Origin: an uncultured Clostridia bacterium
Lineage (GTDB): Bacteria; Bacillota; Clostridia; Christensenellales; UBA1242
Length of the DNA: 13,329 bases
Direction of reading: 5' to 3'
Assembly: GCA_900554955.1 (NCBI GenBank)
Contig: USJH01000007.1
Coordinates: 1 to 13,329, forward strand
Shown here piece by piece: positions 5,411 through 13,329 of the stretch; positions within the stretch are counted from its first letter, which is position 1; each line of letters starts with the position of its first letter. The position numbers and the translations under genes were made by a program. The notes beneath the pieces were generated by a model. The model was not told the DNA's origin. It ran no database searches and worked only from the letters and a program-made list of their open reading frames with translations.

Positions 5411-5440
5411 ATTTTATCACATTCAAAAAGCGGTTGGCAA
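5411..5440 (-). promoter_or_regulatory. Sigma-A type promoter of ybeY-era
   Basis: TTGCCA (5435-5440) and TAAAAT (5411-5416) on the minus strand are 18 bases apart and 20 bases before the ybeY start. The match is good but not perfect. Confidence 0.5.
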
Positions 5441-5452
5441 GCAAAGGTGTTA

Positions 5453-5482
5453 GTCATTATATACAAATCTTTTGCATAACAT
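5453..5482 (+). promoter_or_regulatory. Possible sporulation sigma (sigma-E-like) promoter of yqfC-yqfD
   Basis: GTCATTAT (5453-5460) and CATAACAT (5475-5482) are separated by 14 bases. This resembles the sigma-E pattern, with its CATA-n-n-n-T type -10 and 13-14 base spacing. yqfC and yqfD are known members of the mother-cell sporulation programme in Bacillus, which fits. The weak point is distance: the predicted start of transcription would fall at about 5489, only about 8 bases before the yqfC start codon and inside its GGTG motif. Confidence 0.35.
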
Positions 5483-5496
5483 TTATTGGTGAAAAC

Positions 5497-5757
5497 ATGA
5501 GCTATTTTGACGAAAACTTAAAATCTTTAAACATTTCCGAACTTGCAATTGAAACGACAACAGTGCATTTTATTTTGCATAAAGGGATTATTGTTGAAGG
5601 GTTTAAAAAAATATTTGAACTTTCAGAAAACAAAATTACACTTGCACTAAAAACAGGTGAAACCCTTATAGTCACTGGCGATAAACTTGAAATTAAAGAG
5701 ATTGCAAAAGGTGAAATTTCTGTTGCTGGAGAAATATATAACATTCAAGTTAAATAA
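5497..5757 (+). CDS. yqfC: YqfC family sporulation protein
   Basis: The 86-residue product matches the YqfC/YabP family of small sporulation proteins in size and pattern: a short N-terminal part, then beta-rich sequence (TTTVHFILHKGIIVEGFKKI, ENKITLALKTGETLIVTGDK, ISVAGEIYNIQVK). The exact biochemical role is not known; Bacillus members are made in the mother cell. The start is the ATG at 5497 with a weak GGTG site 5 bases before it. The extra 21 codons back to a TTG at 5434 look non-coding and overlap the promoter region. It is followed after 8 bases by yqfD, as in other spore formers, and the two surely form one operon. The pair points the opposite way from its usual neighbours ybeY and floA. 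Confidence 0.82.
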   Translation: MSYFDENLKSLNISELAIETTTVHFILHKGIIVEGFKKIFELSENKITLALKTGETLIVTGDKLEIKEIAKGEISVAGEIYNIQVK

Positions 5758-5765
5758 GGTTTTAT

Positions 5766-6905
5766 ATGGACAAAACATTTTATACACTATCAATTTCAGG
5801 GCTAAATTTGCACCACGCCATAGAATATTTTGAGCGTGAGCATTTTCATGCTAAAAACCTTTCAAGAACCGATAAAAACACATTATTTGTTACTCTTCCA
5901 AAATCTGAATATAAAAAGTTCCGATCAGAAAATTTTGCAAGGACATTCAGAATTAAAATCATAAAAAGATCTGGAAATGAAGAAACTATCTCATCACTTC
6001 TTCGACACATTGGACTTTTTCTTGGGCTTATTGTTGCTGCCTCTTCGGTTGTTCTTTGCACAAACCGAATCTTCGCTGTTGAACTTTGCGAAGAAAACCA
6101 CACTTGCAAAAATCAGCAACAATGTATTTTTTTTGGTGAAAATAAAAACAAACTTTTAGAAAGTTTGAAAGATCTTGGAATTGCAAAAGGAAAAAGCCTT
6201 CCACTTAGAAATTCAAACCGAGAAATTGAGCAAAAACTCATAAGACAATTTAAACAAATTTCTGGGGTTACAATAAGACAAAACGGTGTAAAAATTGTTG
6301 TCGAAATTAAAGAGGCAACTTTGCGAGAAGAAGAACACATTTCAAATCTTGTCTCCCCCGTAAGTGGTGTTATTGTAACAAGCACAATAAATTCCGGAAA
6401 AAGCCATGTTAAAAATGGCGATATTGTTTTAAAAGGACAAACTCTTGTTTCTCCAGAAAACAACAAAAACGTTTCTGCAAGTTTTGAAATTCGAACATTT
6501 TATCACGAAACAATGGTTTATAGCGATAACATCACATCATATAAAAGGACTGGCAAAAAATATACAATTAACAACATAGAATTTTTTGGTTTAAAACTTA
6601 AATCAAACAAAAAGCAACCTTTCAAAATTTATGAAGCAAAAACCACAAAAAGATATATGTTTTATAATCTCTTCTTCCCTTTCACAAGCACATCAACAAC
6701 ATTTGAAGAGTTGAAAAAGGAAGAAACCGTGGTTCCATTCGAGCAAGTTGAAGACATCTTGAAACAAAAATTATATGCCGAAACAAAAGCCAACCTGCCA
6801 TCAAATGTTGAAGAAAAAAACAAAACCTTTGCAACTTTCAAAGAAAAAGACAAAACCCGATTAGATTGCTATATTGAAGCAATTGTGACAGTTTCTGCAG
6901 CATAA
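5766..6905 (+). CDS. yqfD: Sporulation protein YqfD
   Basis: YqfD is a membrane protein of the mother-cell sporulation programme; its mechanism is not established. The 379-residue length fits the family. Residues 1-75 form a cytoplasmic N-terminal domain rich in beta strands and basic residues. One membrane segment lies at about 82-99 (IGLFLGLIVAASSVVLCTN). The outer part has a POTRA-like stretch (about 125-185, LLESLKDLGIAKGKS ... QISGVTIRQNGVKIVVEIKE) and then a segment with SPVSGVIVT and NGDIVLKGQTLVSP, as in other YqfD proteins. Two Cys pairs around residues 108-120 (CEENHTCKNQQQC) just outside the membrane are notable. The ribosome binding site TAAGGT overlaps the yqfC stop codon. Two hairpin terminators follow. 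Confidence 0.9.
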   Translation: MDKTFYTLSISGLNLHHAIEYFEREHFHAKNLSRTDKNTLFVTLPKSEYKKFRSENFARTFRIKIIKRSGNEETISSLLRHIGLFLGLIVAASSVVLCTNRIFAVELCEENHTCKNQQQCIFFGENKNKLLESLKDLGIAKGKSLPLRNSNREIEQKLIRQFKQISGVTIRQNGVKIVVEIKEATLREEEHISNLVSPVSGVIVTSTINSGKSHVKNGDIVLKGQTLVSPENNKNVSASFEIRTFYHETMVYSDNITSYKRTGKKYTINNIEFFGLKLKSNKKQPFKIYEAKTTKRYMFYNLFFPFTSTSTTFEELKKEETVVPFEQVEDILKQKLYAETKANLPSNVEEKNKTFATFKEKDKTRLDCYIEAIVTVSAA

Positions 6906-6972: not shown

Positions 6973-7014
6973 AATAATAAAACCACCAAACTAAAACTTG
7001 GTGGTTTTATTATT
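6973..7014. terminator. Bidirectional terminator between yqfD and the convergent gene, overlapping that gene's stop codon
   Basis: A perfect 17-bp stem (6973-6989 with 6998-7014) contains the CCACC/GGTGG core flanked by A/T-rich ends, with an 8-base loop. The loop contains the stop codon of the minus-strand gene (6991-6993), and the last coding codons of that gene form one arm. T-rich tails occur in both directions. Confidence 0.85.
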
Positions 7015-7944
7015 TTTATGTCTTGGATTGTTTATCGCATCAACAATGATCATGGTTTCTGGATCAATCTTATCAAGAATTTTTTCTCCACGGGATTTTG
7101 TGTTTTTCTTCTCTTCAAATGAGCCACCATATTGCATTAATGCTTCGCCAAAATTTGGATCTCTAAGGCTGTCATCAACCCTTGAAAGCATTTCTTGGTT
7201 TTTTTGCTCAATTTGTTTTGCTTGTGACTCGGCAGAAGCAATCGCCCCATGAACACCAATACCAGTTATTCCTGACAAGTTGCCATCTTCACTTACGTGC
7301 AATCTTTCAGTAAAATGTGTTCTATCACCAATTGTTGGAGCTCTGAGAGGACTTCCTTTTGGAGCATTGATTTGAAAGAACCATGGATCATTTTGCTCGG
7401 AATATTCATATTCTCTTGTTCCGAAACGTTCAACAGGCTTTTTCTTCACATCGGTTGCATGAACTTGTTCTTCAGGTTCTTGAGCTGCTGGTTCTTCTTC
7501 GATTTTGTTTCCATTTTTATCAAACACTCTTGAAACAGAAGGATTTCTGCTTCCATTTTTTAGTGCTTTTTTGTTGATTTTCAATTCGGTGTGTGGACGA
7601 ATCACATAAAGCCCTTTCTTTTCCTTTTCTTTTTCAAGAGTTTTTTCTTTTTCTACACTTTCAGTTTTCGCTGACTCGCTTTTTTCTTCTTTTTGTTTGT
7701 CGTCTTTTTTCTCTGCCGACTTCACAACAGGTTCAACTTTTGCCTGTTCTTTCCCGCTGCCTTGTTTTTGTTTTGTCTTGTCTTCTTTTGGTTTTGAATC
7801 TGGCTTTTCTTTCTTCGCCTTCTTCTCTTTAGGCTTTTTTTCTTTCTTGTCTTTCTTCTTTTTTTTGGAAAAGAAAATTTGCCATATTGCAACAATGACT
7901 AATGCTCCAAATCCAAATATAAGCAAAATTTCAATAAGATTCAT
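6991..7944 (-). CDS. Membrane-anchored protein of unknown function with long Lys/Glu-rich segment
   Basis: I do not recognise this 317-residue protein. Residues 4-25 are one strong membrane segment (IEILLIFGFGALVIVAIWQIFF), followed at once by a basic run (SKKKKKDKKEKK). By the positive-inside rule the rest should therefore be cytoplasmic. Residues 26 to about 112 are almost only K, E, S, D and Q and probably extended or coiled. From about 113 the sequence is more varied (GLYVIRPHTELKINKKALKNG). It includes a possible short fold around FGTREYEYSEQNDPWFFQIN and a region with NLSGITGIGVHGAIASAESQ, then a helix-like stretch and a basic tail ending NNKTTKF. The start has an AGAAGGA site 6 bases upstream. 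It sits downstream of floA on the same strand but beyond floA's terminator, and directly after a hairpin-rich repeated element that would form its mRNA leader. A scaffold or anchor role is only a guess. Confidence 0.75.
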   Translation of the reverse strand: MNLIEILLIFGFGALVIVAIWQIFFSKKKKKDKKEKKPKEKKAKKEKPDSKPKEDKTKQKQGSGKEQAKVEPVVKSAEKKDDKQKEEKSESAKTESVEKEKTLEKEKEKKGLYVIRPHTELKINKKALKNGSRNPSVSRVFDKNGNKIEEEPAAQEPEEQVHATDVKKKPVERFGTREYEYSEQNDPWFFQINAPKGSPLRAPTIGDRTHFTERLHVSEDGNLSGITGIGVHGAIASAESQAKQIEQKNQEMLSRVDDSLRDPNFGEALMQYGGSFEEKKNTKSRGEKILDKIDPETMIIVDAINNPRHKNNKTTKF

Positions 7945-7959
7945 AATTTTTCCTTCTGC

Positions 7960-8043
7960 CTCTCTACCGAACCTCGTCGAAACTCATGTTATTAATTCGT
8001 TTTTAGCAAAAGCTAAAAAGCTTCATCTTTCACATGGTTTCTC
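7960..8043. repeat. Dispersed structured repeat, copy 1 (hairpin domain H1)
   Basis: This is the left copy of a repeat also found at the right end of the window. Bases 7976-8043 align with 13263-13329 at about 61 of 67 positions, with one single-base gap. A shorter flank (CTCT-n-TACCGAACC, 7960-7973) is also shared. It folds as an outer stem GAAAC/CATGT (7979-7983, 7985-7989) with ACATG/GTTTC (8032-8041), leaving one bulged base at 7984. Inside is a perfect 8-bp hairpin TTTTTAGC/GCTAAAAA (8000-8007, 8012-8019) with loop AAAA. Both copies have the same orientation. Its function is unknown. Confidence 0.8.
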
Positions 8044-8046
8044 CTT

Positions 8047-8194
8047 TCCCCACAAGATTTCTTTCGAAATTTTGCGGGGACCCTATAACTTACCTCACCC
8101 TTGCTCATCTTTTCGGTTTAAAGCTTCAAACAAGAACCGCCGATGTAACAACGGATACTACCGGAAACCTTGTTTTAACCTTTAAACTCGAAAA
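8047..8194. other. Candidate structured RNA or palindromic element (domains H2 and H3) next to repeat copy 1
   Basis: Two further strong foldings follow repeat copy 1. H2 (8047-8080) is a hairpin of 14 pairs with one mismatch, a CCCC/GGGG base and a TTTC loop. H3 (8110-8194) is a long nested helix: TTTTCG with CGAAAA, GTTTAAAG with CTTTAAAC (one bulged T), a 4x4 internal loop, AAACAAG with CTTGTTT, then short CCG/CGG helices in the head. The G/C-rich motifs stand out from the AT-rich surroundings. On the minus strand this would be the leader of the gene at 6991-7944; on the plus strand it precedes no gene. No known riboswitch, SRP, RNase P or tmRNA motif is recognised. Confidence 0.6.
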
Positions 8195-8349: not shown

Positions 8350-9450
8350 TTAGTTATTATTTCCAGTTGGTTTAATTCTATTTCTTGGGAAAGGCATTGA
8401 TGGCATTACTGGACCTTCTTGACTTGAAGAGTCATCGCCGTCACCAGATTTTTTGCTAAGAGATTTTCTCATATCGGTGTCAGCTTGAAGGTTCTTCATG
8501 TTATAATAGTCCATCACACCCATTTTTCCACTATTTAATGCTTTTGCAAGAGCTTTTGGAACTTCAGCTTCAGCTTCGATAACCAAAGCTTTCATTTCTT
8601 CAACTTTTGCCTTCATTTCATTTTCAGTTGCAATCGCATTGCATTTTCTTTCTTCGGCTTTTGCTTGCGCAATTCGTTTTTCAGCTTCAGCATTTGCAAT
8701 GTCAAGTTCAGCACCAATGTTTCTTCCAACATCAATATCAGCAATATCAATTGAAACAATTTCATATGCAGTTCCTGTGTCAAGCCCCTTGTTTAAAACT
8801 GTGCTTGAAATCAAGTCTGGGTTTTCAAGAACGATTTTGTGGGTTGCAGCAGAACCAATTGTTGTAACAACCCCTTCACCAACACGGGCGATGATGGTTT
8901 CTTCACCTGCACCAAAAATTTGCATATGCATGTTTGAAATAACAGTAACTTTAACTTTAACCTTAAGTTCAATTCCGTCTTTTGCCATTGCAGAAATTTC
9001 AGGAGTTTCAATAATTTTTGGAACAACCGAGTTTCGAACAGCTTGATATACATCACGTCCAGCAAGGTCAATTGCTTTTGCAGTTTGAACTGACAAGTCC
9101 ATGTTTGCAGAGTGTGCAGAAATAAGTGCTTTCACAACTCTTTCAACATCGCCATTTGCCATATAGTGAGTTTCAAGCTCATCAATTGTAATGCTTGCAA
9201 GTCCAGCCTTTTTTGCAGTGATATAGGTTAAAACAATTTTGTTCACATCAACCTTTCGCATTTTCATTCCGATAAGTTTGCTCATTGGAACGTGTGCAGA
9301 TGAGACAATCGCACGAAACCACAAACGAAGTGGAACCAAACACAAAATTACAATTATTGCCGCAAGTAAAATTGCGCCAGCAACTGAAAGCCCAATTATC
9401 CAGCCAAGAGACAACTTTGCAAGCATGCCTTCATAAACTAAATTTGTCAT
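8350..9450 (-). CDS. floA: Flotillin-like protein FloA
   Basis: FloA (YqfA) is a membrane-associated scaffold of the flotillin/SPFH class that organises functional membrane microdomains in Firmicutes. The 366-residue protein has a hydrophobic N-terminal segment (about 16-42, [18 protein letters not shown]) and a short amphipathic stretch. Next comes the long SPFH region with [18 protein letters not shown], the beta-rich [15 protein letters not shown], and [21 protein letters not shown]. After this is the Ala/Glu-rich coiled segment ([37 protein letters not shown]). The last 30 residues are a low-complexity Gly/Ser/Pro/Asn tail that makes it somewhat longer than the Bacillus protein (331 aa). 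The start has AGGAAGGAAAG just upstream. It follows nfeD after 12 bases and shares its promoter. Confidence 0.96.
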
Positions 9451-13186: not shown

Positions 13187-13260
13187 GTTTTGCATGATAG
13201 TTCGTTATCACTCACATAATAGCAAAACAATATGTTCCGGCTCTTTACCGAACCGCCGGA
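13187..13260. other. Hairpins flanking repeat copy 2
   Basis: GTTTTGC (13187-13193) pairs with GCAAAAC (13222-13228) and encloses a small TGATA/TATCA hairpin with a TTCG loop. Next, TCCGGC (13236-13241) pairs with GCCGGA (13255-13260) around a 13-base loop holding the shared TACCGAACC. The second hairpin is missing from repeat copy 1, which lacks the seven bases of its right arm. Confidence 0.55.
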
Positions 13261-13329
13261 GCGTCGAAACACATGTTAATAATTCGTTTTTAGCGAAGCT
13301 AAAAAGCTTCATTTGTTACATGGTTTCTC
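13241..13329. repeat. Dispersed structured repeat, copy 2 (cut by window edge)
   Basis: This is the right copy of the H1 repeat, in the same orientation as the one at 7960-8043. It keeps the outer GAAAC-n-CATGT/ACATG-GTTTC stem with a different bulged base (A instead of T). It also keeps the perfect TTTTTAGC/GCTAAAAA hairpin, but with loop GAA instead of AAAA. Between copies the stems are unchanged, and the six substitutions and one gap lie in the bulge, the loop or the unpaired linkers. The window ends within the shared sequence (TGGTTTCTC), so the H2 and H3 domains may follow outside. Confidence 0.8.

Follow-up and report, generated by a model that had tools for sequence, protein, structure and literature searches.

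A dispersed double-hairpin element in one bacterial order, best read as a loop-preferring mobile element

The window analysed here, i.e., the whole stretch of 13,329 nt, contains two copies of a dispersed hairpin-forming repeat, named copies A and B. Copy A lies upstream of a gene for a Lys-rich protein of 317 aa, 29 nt before its ATG, with a floA-like gene on the other side. The features of this locus and of copy B are listed below, with the basis of each in brackets; model R1 and alignments A2 and A4 are described further on.

6991–7944, minus strand: gene for the 317-aa Lys-rich protein (open reading frame, ORF)
7958–7973, minus strand: GGTTCGGTAGAGAGGC, immediately following copy A and matching the 3' part of a further dispersed hairpin (GCCGCCGGYTCGGTAGAGAGGCGGAAC)
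7974–8084, minus strand (5' end 8084, 3' end 7974): copy A, complete element (model R1)
7974–7978, minus strand: single-stranded tail GACGA, with which the element ends on its 3' side (rows of A2 and A4)
7979–8041, minus strand: two-tier hairpin P2/P3 with base GAA...TTC and an inner internal loop (fold, covariation of helix 2)
8000–8019, minus strand: P3 stem TTTTTAGC/GCTAAAAA within P2/P3
8042–8045, minus strand: single-stranded foot AGGA between both hairpins (rows of A2 and A4)
8047–8084, minus strand: hairpin P1, GGG-TCCCC...GGGGA (GGGTCCCC...GGGGA) (RNA fold, covariation of helix 1)
8350–9450, minus strand: floA-like gene (so named by reading), flanking copy A on the side away from the 317-aa gene (ORF)
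13,235–13,260, minus strand: hairpin CTCCGGC-GGTTCGGTAAAGA-GCCGGAA adjoining copy B, of the same family as that beside copy A (sequence, fold)
13,261–13,329, minus strand: copy B, a second element of which the window edge leaves only the 3' part (model R1)

The 317-aa protein had 31 homologues and no Pfam match. Its gene is placed between the floA-like gene and yqfC/yqfD-like genes, and the latter (a yqfC-like gene named by reading and yqfD identified with Pfam, 5434–6905) are inverted relative to the surrounding minus-strand genes. Homologues of the floA-like gene were found in six relatives at 83–90% identity. In some relatives from the order, floA is followed by different short genes with a similar end motif (e.g., ILGEILNEPRFK). 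Elsewhere in the window, a presumed pyruvate phosphate dikinase (by reading) is split between two minus-strand frames, 1–1158 and 987–2561, that overlap at 987–1158, which suggests a frameshift or an assembly error.

A sequence-only reading had described the repeat as a hairpin unit recurring at the right window edge, with conserved stems and changed loops. The recurrence is real: 7975–8043 and 13,262–13,329 share their orientation and 62 of their 69 aligned positions (89.9%). As claimed, the two copies differ only at the bulge base, in the P3 loop (where there is a one-base indel) and in linkers that do not pair; read on the minus strand, copies A and B each have a perfect P2 stem (GAAACCATGT with ACATG-(A or T bulge)-GTTTC) and a perfect P3 stem. 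The description holds for this pair but not for the family, in which stems vary with compensatory changes. Similarly, the interval marked out is a genuine repeat but only part of a longer minus-strand element, which includes the second hairpin at 8047–8084. Fold z-scores for copy A were −4.0 on the plus strand and −2.9 on the minus strand (0 of 200 shuffles as good in either case), and those for copy B were −3.4 (plus strand, 2 of 200 shuffles as good) and −3.0 (minus strand, 0 of 200). The core pattern taken from the copies occurred twice in the window and in none of 200 shuffles.

Model R1 matched copy A over its full length (1–115, 76.8 bits, E 2.2e-22), copy A being one of the 20 rows from which the model was built. 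Copy B, which is outside these rows, scored 23 bits (E 4e-5) in a search that allowed for its truncated 5' end and 13.5 bits (E 0.007) when searched with no filters. Both copies are directly followed by a hairpin sequence: copy B by a whole hairpin of the GCCGCCGGCTCGGTAGAGAGGCGG family and copy A by GGTTCGGTAGAGAGGC. The genomes G751 and G730 contain the hairpin GCCGCCGGYTCGGTAGAGAGGCGGAAC without interruption, and in G730 seven copies of the element have the 3' part of this hairpin immediately behind them. Judging from these sequences, this hairpin was probably the insertion target of copy A.

An exact pattern of the repeat yielded seven matches in a collection of species genomes, none of which continued as the repeat, and blastn against phage and plasmid records returned weak partial matches only. 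Relatives were reached through the window neighbours, floA and the 317-aa gene. With a profile built from homologues of the 317-aa protein (A1), strong matches (E 6e-45 or better) were obtained in six genomes out of 147 from a single GTDB family. The profile had no matches among 248 genomes drawn from the order and 15 among 391 drawn from the class, all at 25 bits or less. We took these class matches to be chance matches of Lys-rich sequence; one of the genomes, G103, led to the right family. On its own, floA was a poor guide to relatives because the protein from the window forms a long branch. In G751 (locus L047), the interval between floA and the 317-aa gene carries a related two-hairpin element of quite different sequence, again with a P1-type hairpin. 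The two ends common to these elements gave the scan pattern AGGAGAA-N45-75-TTCGACG, which gave 44 matches in G730 (23 in forward and 21 in reverse orientation), 13 in G751, nine in G741 and four in G653; the reversed pattern, used as a control, gave zero or one match per strand and genome. The pattern was not found in G675, G713, G103 and G174, the first three of which did have matches to model R1; G174 had none.

The anatomy of the element was assessed on alignment A2, which consists of 20 diverse copies from nine sources (104–115 nt) and is the source of model R1. The consensus reads GGGG-P1(CCCC...GGGG)-AG-AGGA-P2(GAA...TTC, with the inner P3 hairpin)-GACGA, and most of the copies shown adopted this shape when folded singly. 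The sequences of P1 and P2 are different and the two fold independently, i.e., they do not form an inverted doublet. The ends of the element, GGGGTCCCC and TTCGACGA, are not inverted copies of each other, and there are no terminal inverted repeats. A short minus-strand peptide (ATG TGA or ATG TAA after GAGAAACC) was considered and dropped, as it is absent from the other A2 rows. Rfam had no match on the element, in the window at E ≤ 1 or in eight element loci at E ≤ 0.1. The Rfam scan of a relative showed an M-box magnesium riboswitch (RF00380) at L050, positions 2251–2418.

Both helix 1 (P1) and helix 2 (P2/P3) covary. In A2, 13 of 20 pairs changed on both sides (8.3 ± 1.4 in shuffled alignments), with 64 double-change cells (21.7 ± 4.6 shuffled) and a covariation of 0.415 (0.189 ± 0.017 shuffled; 0.08–0.19 in slid controls). 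A second alignment, A4, was made from 36 model hits in seven other genomes (34 distinct rows). Its covariation was 0.463 compared with 0.155 ± 0.012 shuffled, in an alignment that was fitted to the model and so favours the structure. Even the GAA/TTC base pairs covary in A4, to GCA/TGC and AAA/TTT. The constancy of AGGAGAA and TTCGACG in A2 is partly built in because the copies were picked with that pattern, and each of the two motifs was present in just 11 of the 34 full-length A4 rows. AGGA and GACG were found in 20 of 20 A2 rows, in all 34 full-length A4 rows, which were found with the model, and in 22 and 21, respectively, of the 23 rows of a mixed set (A3). As these tetranucleotides are kept while the flanking pairs vary, the constant parts of the element are the single-stranded AGGA and GACG.

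The distribution of the element was estimated with R1 at E ≤ 0.001 per genome. Matches were found in 74 of 147 genomes of the family and in 84 of 248 genomes of the order, with 11 positive genomes common to both lists. The order sampled is that of G003, which holds locus L006, and we take it to be Christensenellales. The G730 draft had 54 matches in 1,165,779 bases, nine of which carried a flag for truncation at an end; in a control of 152,485 bases from 32 other loci, there were no matches at E ≤ 0.01. Copy number among the sampled relatives ranged from none detected to more than 50; the E-values are rough, and with the best 25 or 15 candidates scored per genome, high counts are to be read as "at least". 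In a viral collection, a strict pattern picked out nine contigs, and model R1 matched six of these over its full length (four of them share one copy together with its flank), whereas the reversed pattern matched no stretches compared with nine for the pattern itself. Looser patterns added a full-length match in one of 25 further contigs. One contig from this collection, L320, has three element matches within a 13-kb stretch and is possibly host or prophage DNA.

Two expectations of the sequence-only reading were borne out in relatives: there are many copies, as in G730, and several carry compensatory pairs. Its suggestion of selection on structure agrees with the covariation above shuffled levels in A2 and A4, for both hairpins. 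It had left the choice between a small palindromic mobile element and a family of small structured RNAs; signs of the former were found, but the latter gained no support from Rfam or from the orientation of the copies in G730.

The placement of copies was analysed mainly in G730. For 39 copies with P1, the upstream gene was on the same strand in 20 cases, on the opposite strand in 13 and lacking in six; the downstream gene was on the same strand in 15 cases, on the opposite strand in 21 and lacking in three. No clear orientation bias relative to genes was thus seen in this genome. A predicted ORF was overlapped by 11 of the 39 copies; these ORFs were only 103–139 aa long and were presumed to be spurious. 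Paralogous candidates for empty sites were found for 32 of 88 loosely matched G730 copies. By eye, 25 of the 32 were plausible (rows 17, 29, 75, and 82 being weak), and seven were contig-end or self matches. The empty sites were often other dispersed hairpins (CTGGTCGAAGACC, CCCCCGCATGCGGGGG, GACC-TTTTT-GGTC, and GCCGCCGGCTCGGTAGAGAGGCGG), and the element was also found nested in its own P1 loop. A position syntenic with G730 could be identified for three of 24 loci from relatives, and a regular expression found all three empty. Further dispersed hairpin families (e.g., GGCTCCCCCTCGACGGAGGGAGCTGGTCGAAGACCTGAGGGGG) nest with the element at L132, L110, L064, and other loci of G730/G751.

Insertion into tRNA genes was examined by scanning the junctions of chosen loci and then those of 199 loci and the G730 contigs. 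Sites were accepted if the element ended in TTYGACG or, in one tRNA-Pro copy, CCGCGACG. Since the sequence following the element belongs to a tRNA gene, these junctions can be located exactly. Ten distinct tRNA-linked sites were recovered. Seven junctions fell in loops: the T-loop of tRNA-Glu, tRNA-Trp (three genomes), tRNA-Lys (two genomes) and tRNA-Ser, the D-loop of tRNA-Ser (opposite orientation) and tRNA-Leu(AAG), and the anticodon loop of tRNA-Pro. Two were near misses, in the T-stem of tRNA-Gly (2 nt before the loop) and the D-stem of tRNA-Leu(CAG) (1 nt before the loop), and a copy at tRNA-His (L075) ended just before the tRNA, outside any loop. With loops taken as 22 of 75 positions, the binomial P was 0.004 for seven of the nine junctions inside tRNAs and 0.009 for seven of ten, with tRNA-His counted as a miss. 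A tRNA-Met row from G730 was dropped as a P1-like piece rather than an element end, as were second registers or motifs inside the same tRNA-Leu(AAG) and tRNA-Lys genes, which are not element ends. Outside tRNAs, six of 11 hand-picked empty sites lay in the loop of a predicted hairpin, compared with 163 of 600 random intergenic positions; three of the six belong to one repeat family. These predicted folds are suggestive of, at most, a weak loop preference there.

The two sides of the element behaved differently. At the tRNA sites and at several others, the 3' junction keeps to a fixed position, about one base beyond TTCGACG, and in many copies a flanking duplication starts 1 nt after this motif. 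The 5' side is ragged: dispersed hairpins show no duplication, and at some of them one target arm is lost. Duplications at tRNA sites measured 79 bp (L058), ~82 bp (L257), ~88–90 bp (L065), and ~85–91 bp (L254), and others were shorter or partly decayed; a fixed target-duplication length was rejected, as lengths vary among sites. L094, L137, and L285 are tandem duplications of a larger unit and were left out of the clean sites. The element thus shows neither the terminal inverted repeats nor the short, constant-length target duplication of a MITE.

Some tRNA genes carried copies in more than one genome. G730, G751, and G694 have one at tRNA-Trp, apparently at the same locus as judged from common neighbours; the hairpins of these copies are alike in shape but have nothing in common in sequence. 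A copy at tRNA-Lys was found in G653 and again in G730. Instead of recent mobility, such recurrence could mean an insertion hot spot or long conservation of shape in place, and the latter would point to a function. The tRNA-Trp arrangement at L053, L060, and L257 consists of a terminator, an inverted T-arm, the element, and a second tRNA 3' end. By eye, several tRNA genes of G730 have their own 3' end repeated in inverted orientation downstream of the terminator. Because these inverted ends occur with or without the element, palindrome growth may, on sequence grounds, be a general habit of G730 that contributes to the junctions.

We consider it likely that copies A and B are non-autonomous mobile elements of ~100–120 bp found in one bacterial order, and the best reading is a mobile element that consists of two hairpins, prefers loops, and has no match in Rfam. 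Mobility is backed by dispersal, both orientations, compensatory changes in the two hairpins, nesting, empty sites, the fixed feet, the tRNA junctions in loops, the duplications and copies on contigs classed as viral; against it, no mobilising enzyme was found, copies recur at tRNA-Trp and tRNA-Lys, the loop preference is weak outside tRNAs, the tRNA-His copy is outside any loop, 11 of 39 G730 copies overlap a predicted ORF, and no polymorphism between strains was seen. Movement in the form of a folded single strand is quite possible, though somewhat less likely than not. The strand would be single-stranded DNA or, with less likelihood, RNA, and a putative enzyme acting in trans would recognise the feet of the hairpins. 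The 3' end of the element would be attached to a target hairpin at its exposed loop, and the 5' side would be finished imprecisely, with no duplication, with the loss of one target arm or with a duplication of ~50–90 bp. Since the tRNA has to remain intact, the survivors at tRNA genes would be limited to insertions that bring a duplication with them. We put forward the complete version only tentatively and hold it to be rather unlikely as a whole: a hitherto undescribed loop-seeking pathway, acting across the order and its phages, in which the 3' GACGA tail would be joined into the loop of a folded DNA hairpin or tRNA and a second cut would give rise to the long duplications, with an enzyme that would be neither Y1 nor reverse transcriptase (RT).

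Folded DNA stem-loops are the recognition sites or targets of other systems too. The attC sites of integrons resemble the element in this respect. So do group IIC introns, which set a precedent for the recognition of a DNA stem-loop target (PMC10190682); unlike these introns, the element shows no ribozyme, and RVT_1 was not found in G730.

The search for a mobilising enzyme covered Y1_Tnp, RVT_1, internal ORFs (in G730) and neighbouring genes, and found none. A long autonomous copy with an internal ORF was not detected in G730, the sole genome searched in this way. Eleven ORF families near copies were common to at least three genomes. As partners, they were rejected: most are, by reading, genes or opposite-strand frames at loci fetched with floA or the 317-aa gene, and the LexA-like and RNase H-like families come from the three tRNA-Trp loci.

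The element could alternatively be a REP/REPIN-like sequence moved by a RAYT or an IS200/IS605 Y1 transposase, which we regard as unlikely. AGGA would then be the 5' guide tetranucleotide, P2 the right-end hairpin, GACGA the cleavage site, and P1 the left-end hairpin. The right ends of IS200/IS605 elements consist of a tetranucleotide, a hairpin, and a cleavage site, a layout that the element fits, and insertion into dispersed hairpins without duplication is also in keeping with Y1 transposition. REP/REPIN sequences are likewise short, extragenic, and hairpin-forming, with compensatory changes, tandem arrays, and mutual insertion (PMC3116915), but REPINs are inverted doublets with conserved ends, whereas the two hairpins here differ and are not inverted copies, and the element has an order-wide consensus. 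The 79–91 bp duplications at tRNA sites do not fit Y1 transposition either. Y1_Tnp (PF01797) scored above the cut-off in only one of 12 genomes tested, G486, and was not detected in the G730 draft, G751, and G741, three richer genomes; G631, which is also element-rich, was outside this sample.

Template switching at replication forks stalled by palindromes would need no dedicated enzyme. It would account for regions full of nested palindromes, for target hairpins that sometimes lost one arm, and for the several G730 tRNA genes that are followed by their own inverted 3' end even where there is no element (by reading). The AGGA and GACG feet, constant across the order, and the fixed 3' junction are left unexplained, and we find it doubtful that template switching alone made the copies.

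A multi-copy structured RNA kept for a host function, i.e., a 3'-UTR element or a small RNA, would suit the strong covariation, the position of copy A just upstream of a start codon, and the apparently shared tRNA-Trp locus with its different hairpin sequences in three genomes. We judge it quite improbable in view of a copy number that varies between sampled relatives from none detected to over 50, the lack of a clear orientation bias in G730, the nesting and empty sites, and the copies on contigs classed as viral. The outline of the element, a hairpin, a short hinge, and a hairpin with an internal loop and a tail, is that of H/ACA guide RNAs, whose hinge motif ANANNA is fitted by the AGAGGA of the element. 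An H/ACA guide RNA was rejected: the tail is GACGA rather than ACA and the element behaves as a dispersed repeat. To our knowledge, there is no bacterial H/ACA machinery.

A SINE-like retro-element, whose folded RNA would be copied at a nicked target by an RT acting in trans, matches the fixed 3' junction, the ragged 5' junction, and the variable duplication or loss of target that mark TPRT, but is very unlikely, as RVT_1 was not found in G730, G751, G653, G486, and G725 (E ≤ 0.001) and its presence in 35 of 147 family genomes, 18 of which carry the element, is what chance predicts from 74 of 147.

Among known repeats, the mobile double-hairpin reading of our element has its closest likeness in outline in mitochondria. 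Paquin et al. (2000) is reportedly the reference for the double-hairpin elements of Allomyces mtDNA. According to PMC2800124, these elements and those of sponge mtDNA are, like ours, tandem hairpins that are dispersed and mostly intergenic; they are tolerated inside rRNA genes and presumed mobile by a mechanism that is not settled, and transposition through an RNA intermediate, in line with a retro-element, has been suggested for Allomyces. Two tandem hairpins, dispersed and largely intergenic, are what we found. Our element differs in its occurrence in bacterial chromosomes and contigs classed as viral, its fixed single-stranded feet, its order-wide compensated stems, and its junctions in tRNA loops with duplications, and by this analogy, we would limit the likeness to shape. 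BOX, RUP, and SPRITE of pneumococcus are also small, dispersed, structured repeats inserted in one another (PMC3049150). BOX and RUP have terminal inverted repeats, target duplications, and a proposed partner IS each, and no partner IS was found for SPRITE; unlike BOX and RUP, our element lacks inverted repeats at its ends and has either no duplication or a long one. Within the openly licensed literature searched, we found no description of the element; the families in a systematic catalogue of stem-loops from 40 bacterial genomes (PMC2267715) lay outside this comparison.

Small hairpin repeats abound in bacteria, many with a mode of spread still to be explained. For the element described here, two features give direct and testable clues to mechanism: only the shape and two short single-stranded motifs are constant across the order, and hairpin loops are preferred at tRNA genes. 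The element also shapes the genomes that carry it. In the G730 draft, nine of 54 matches run into the end of a contig, copies adjoin tRNA and protein genes, and some are carried on contigs classed as viral.
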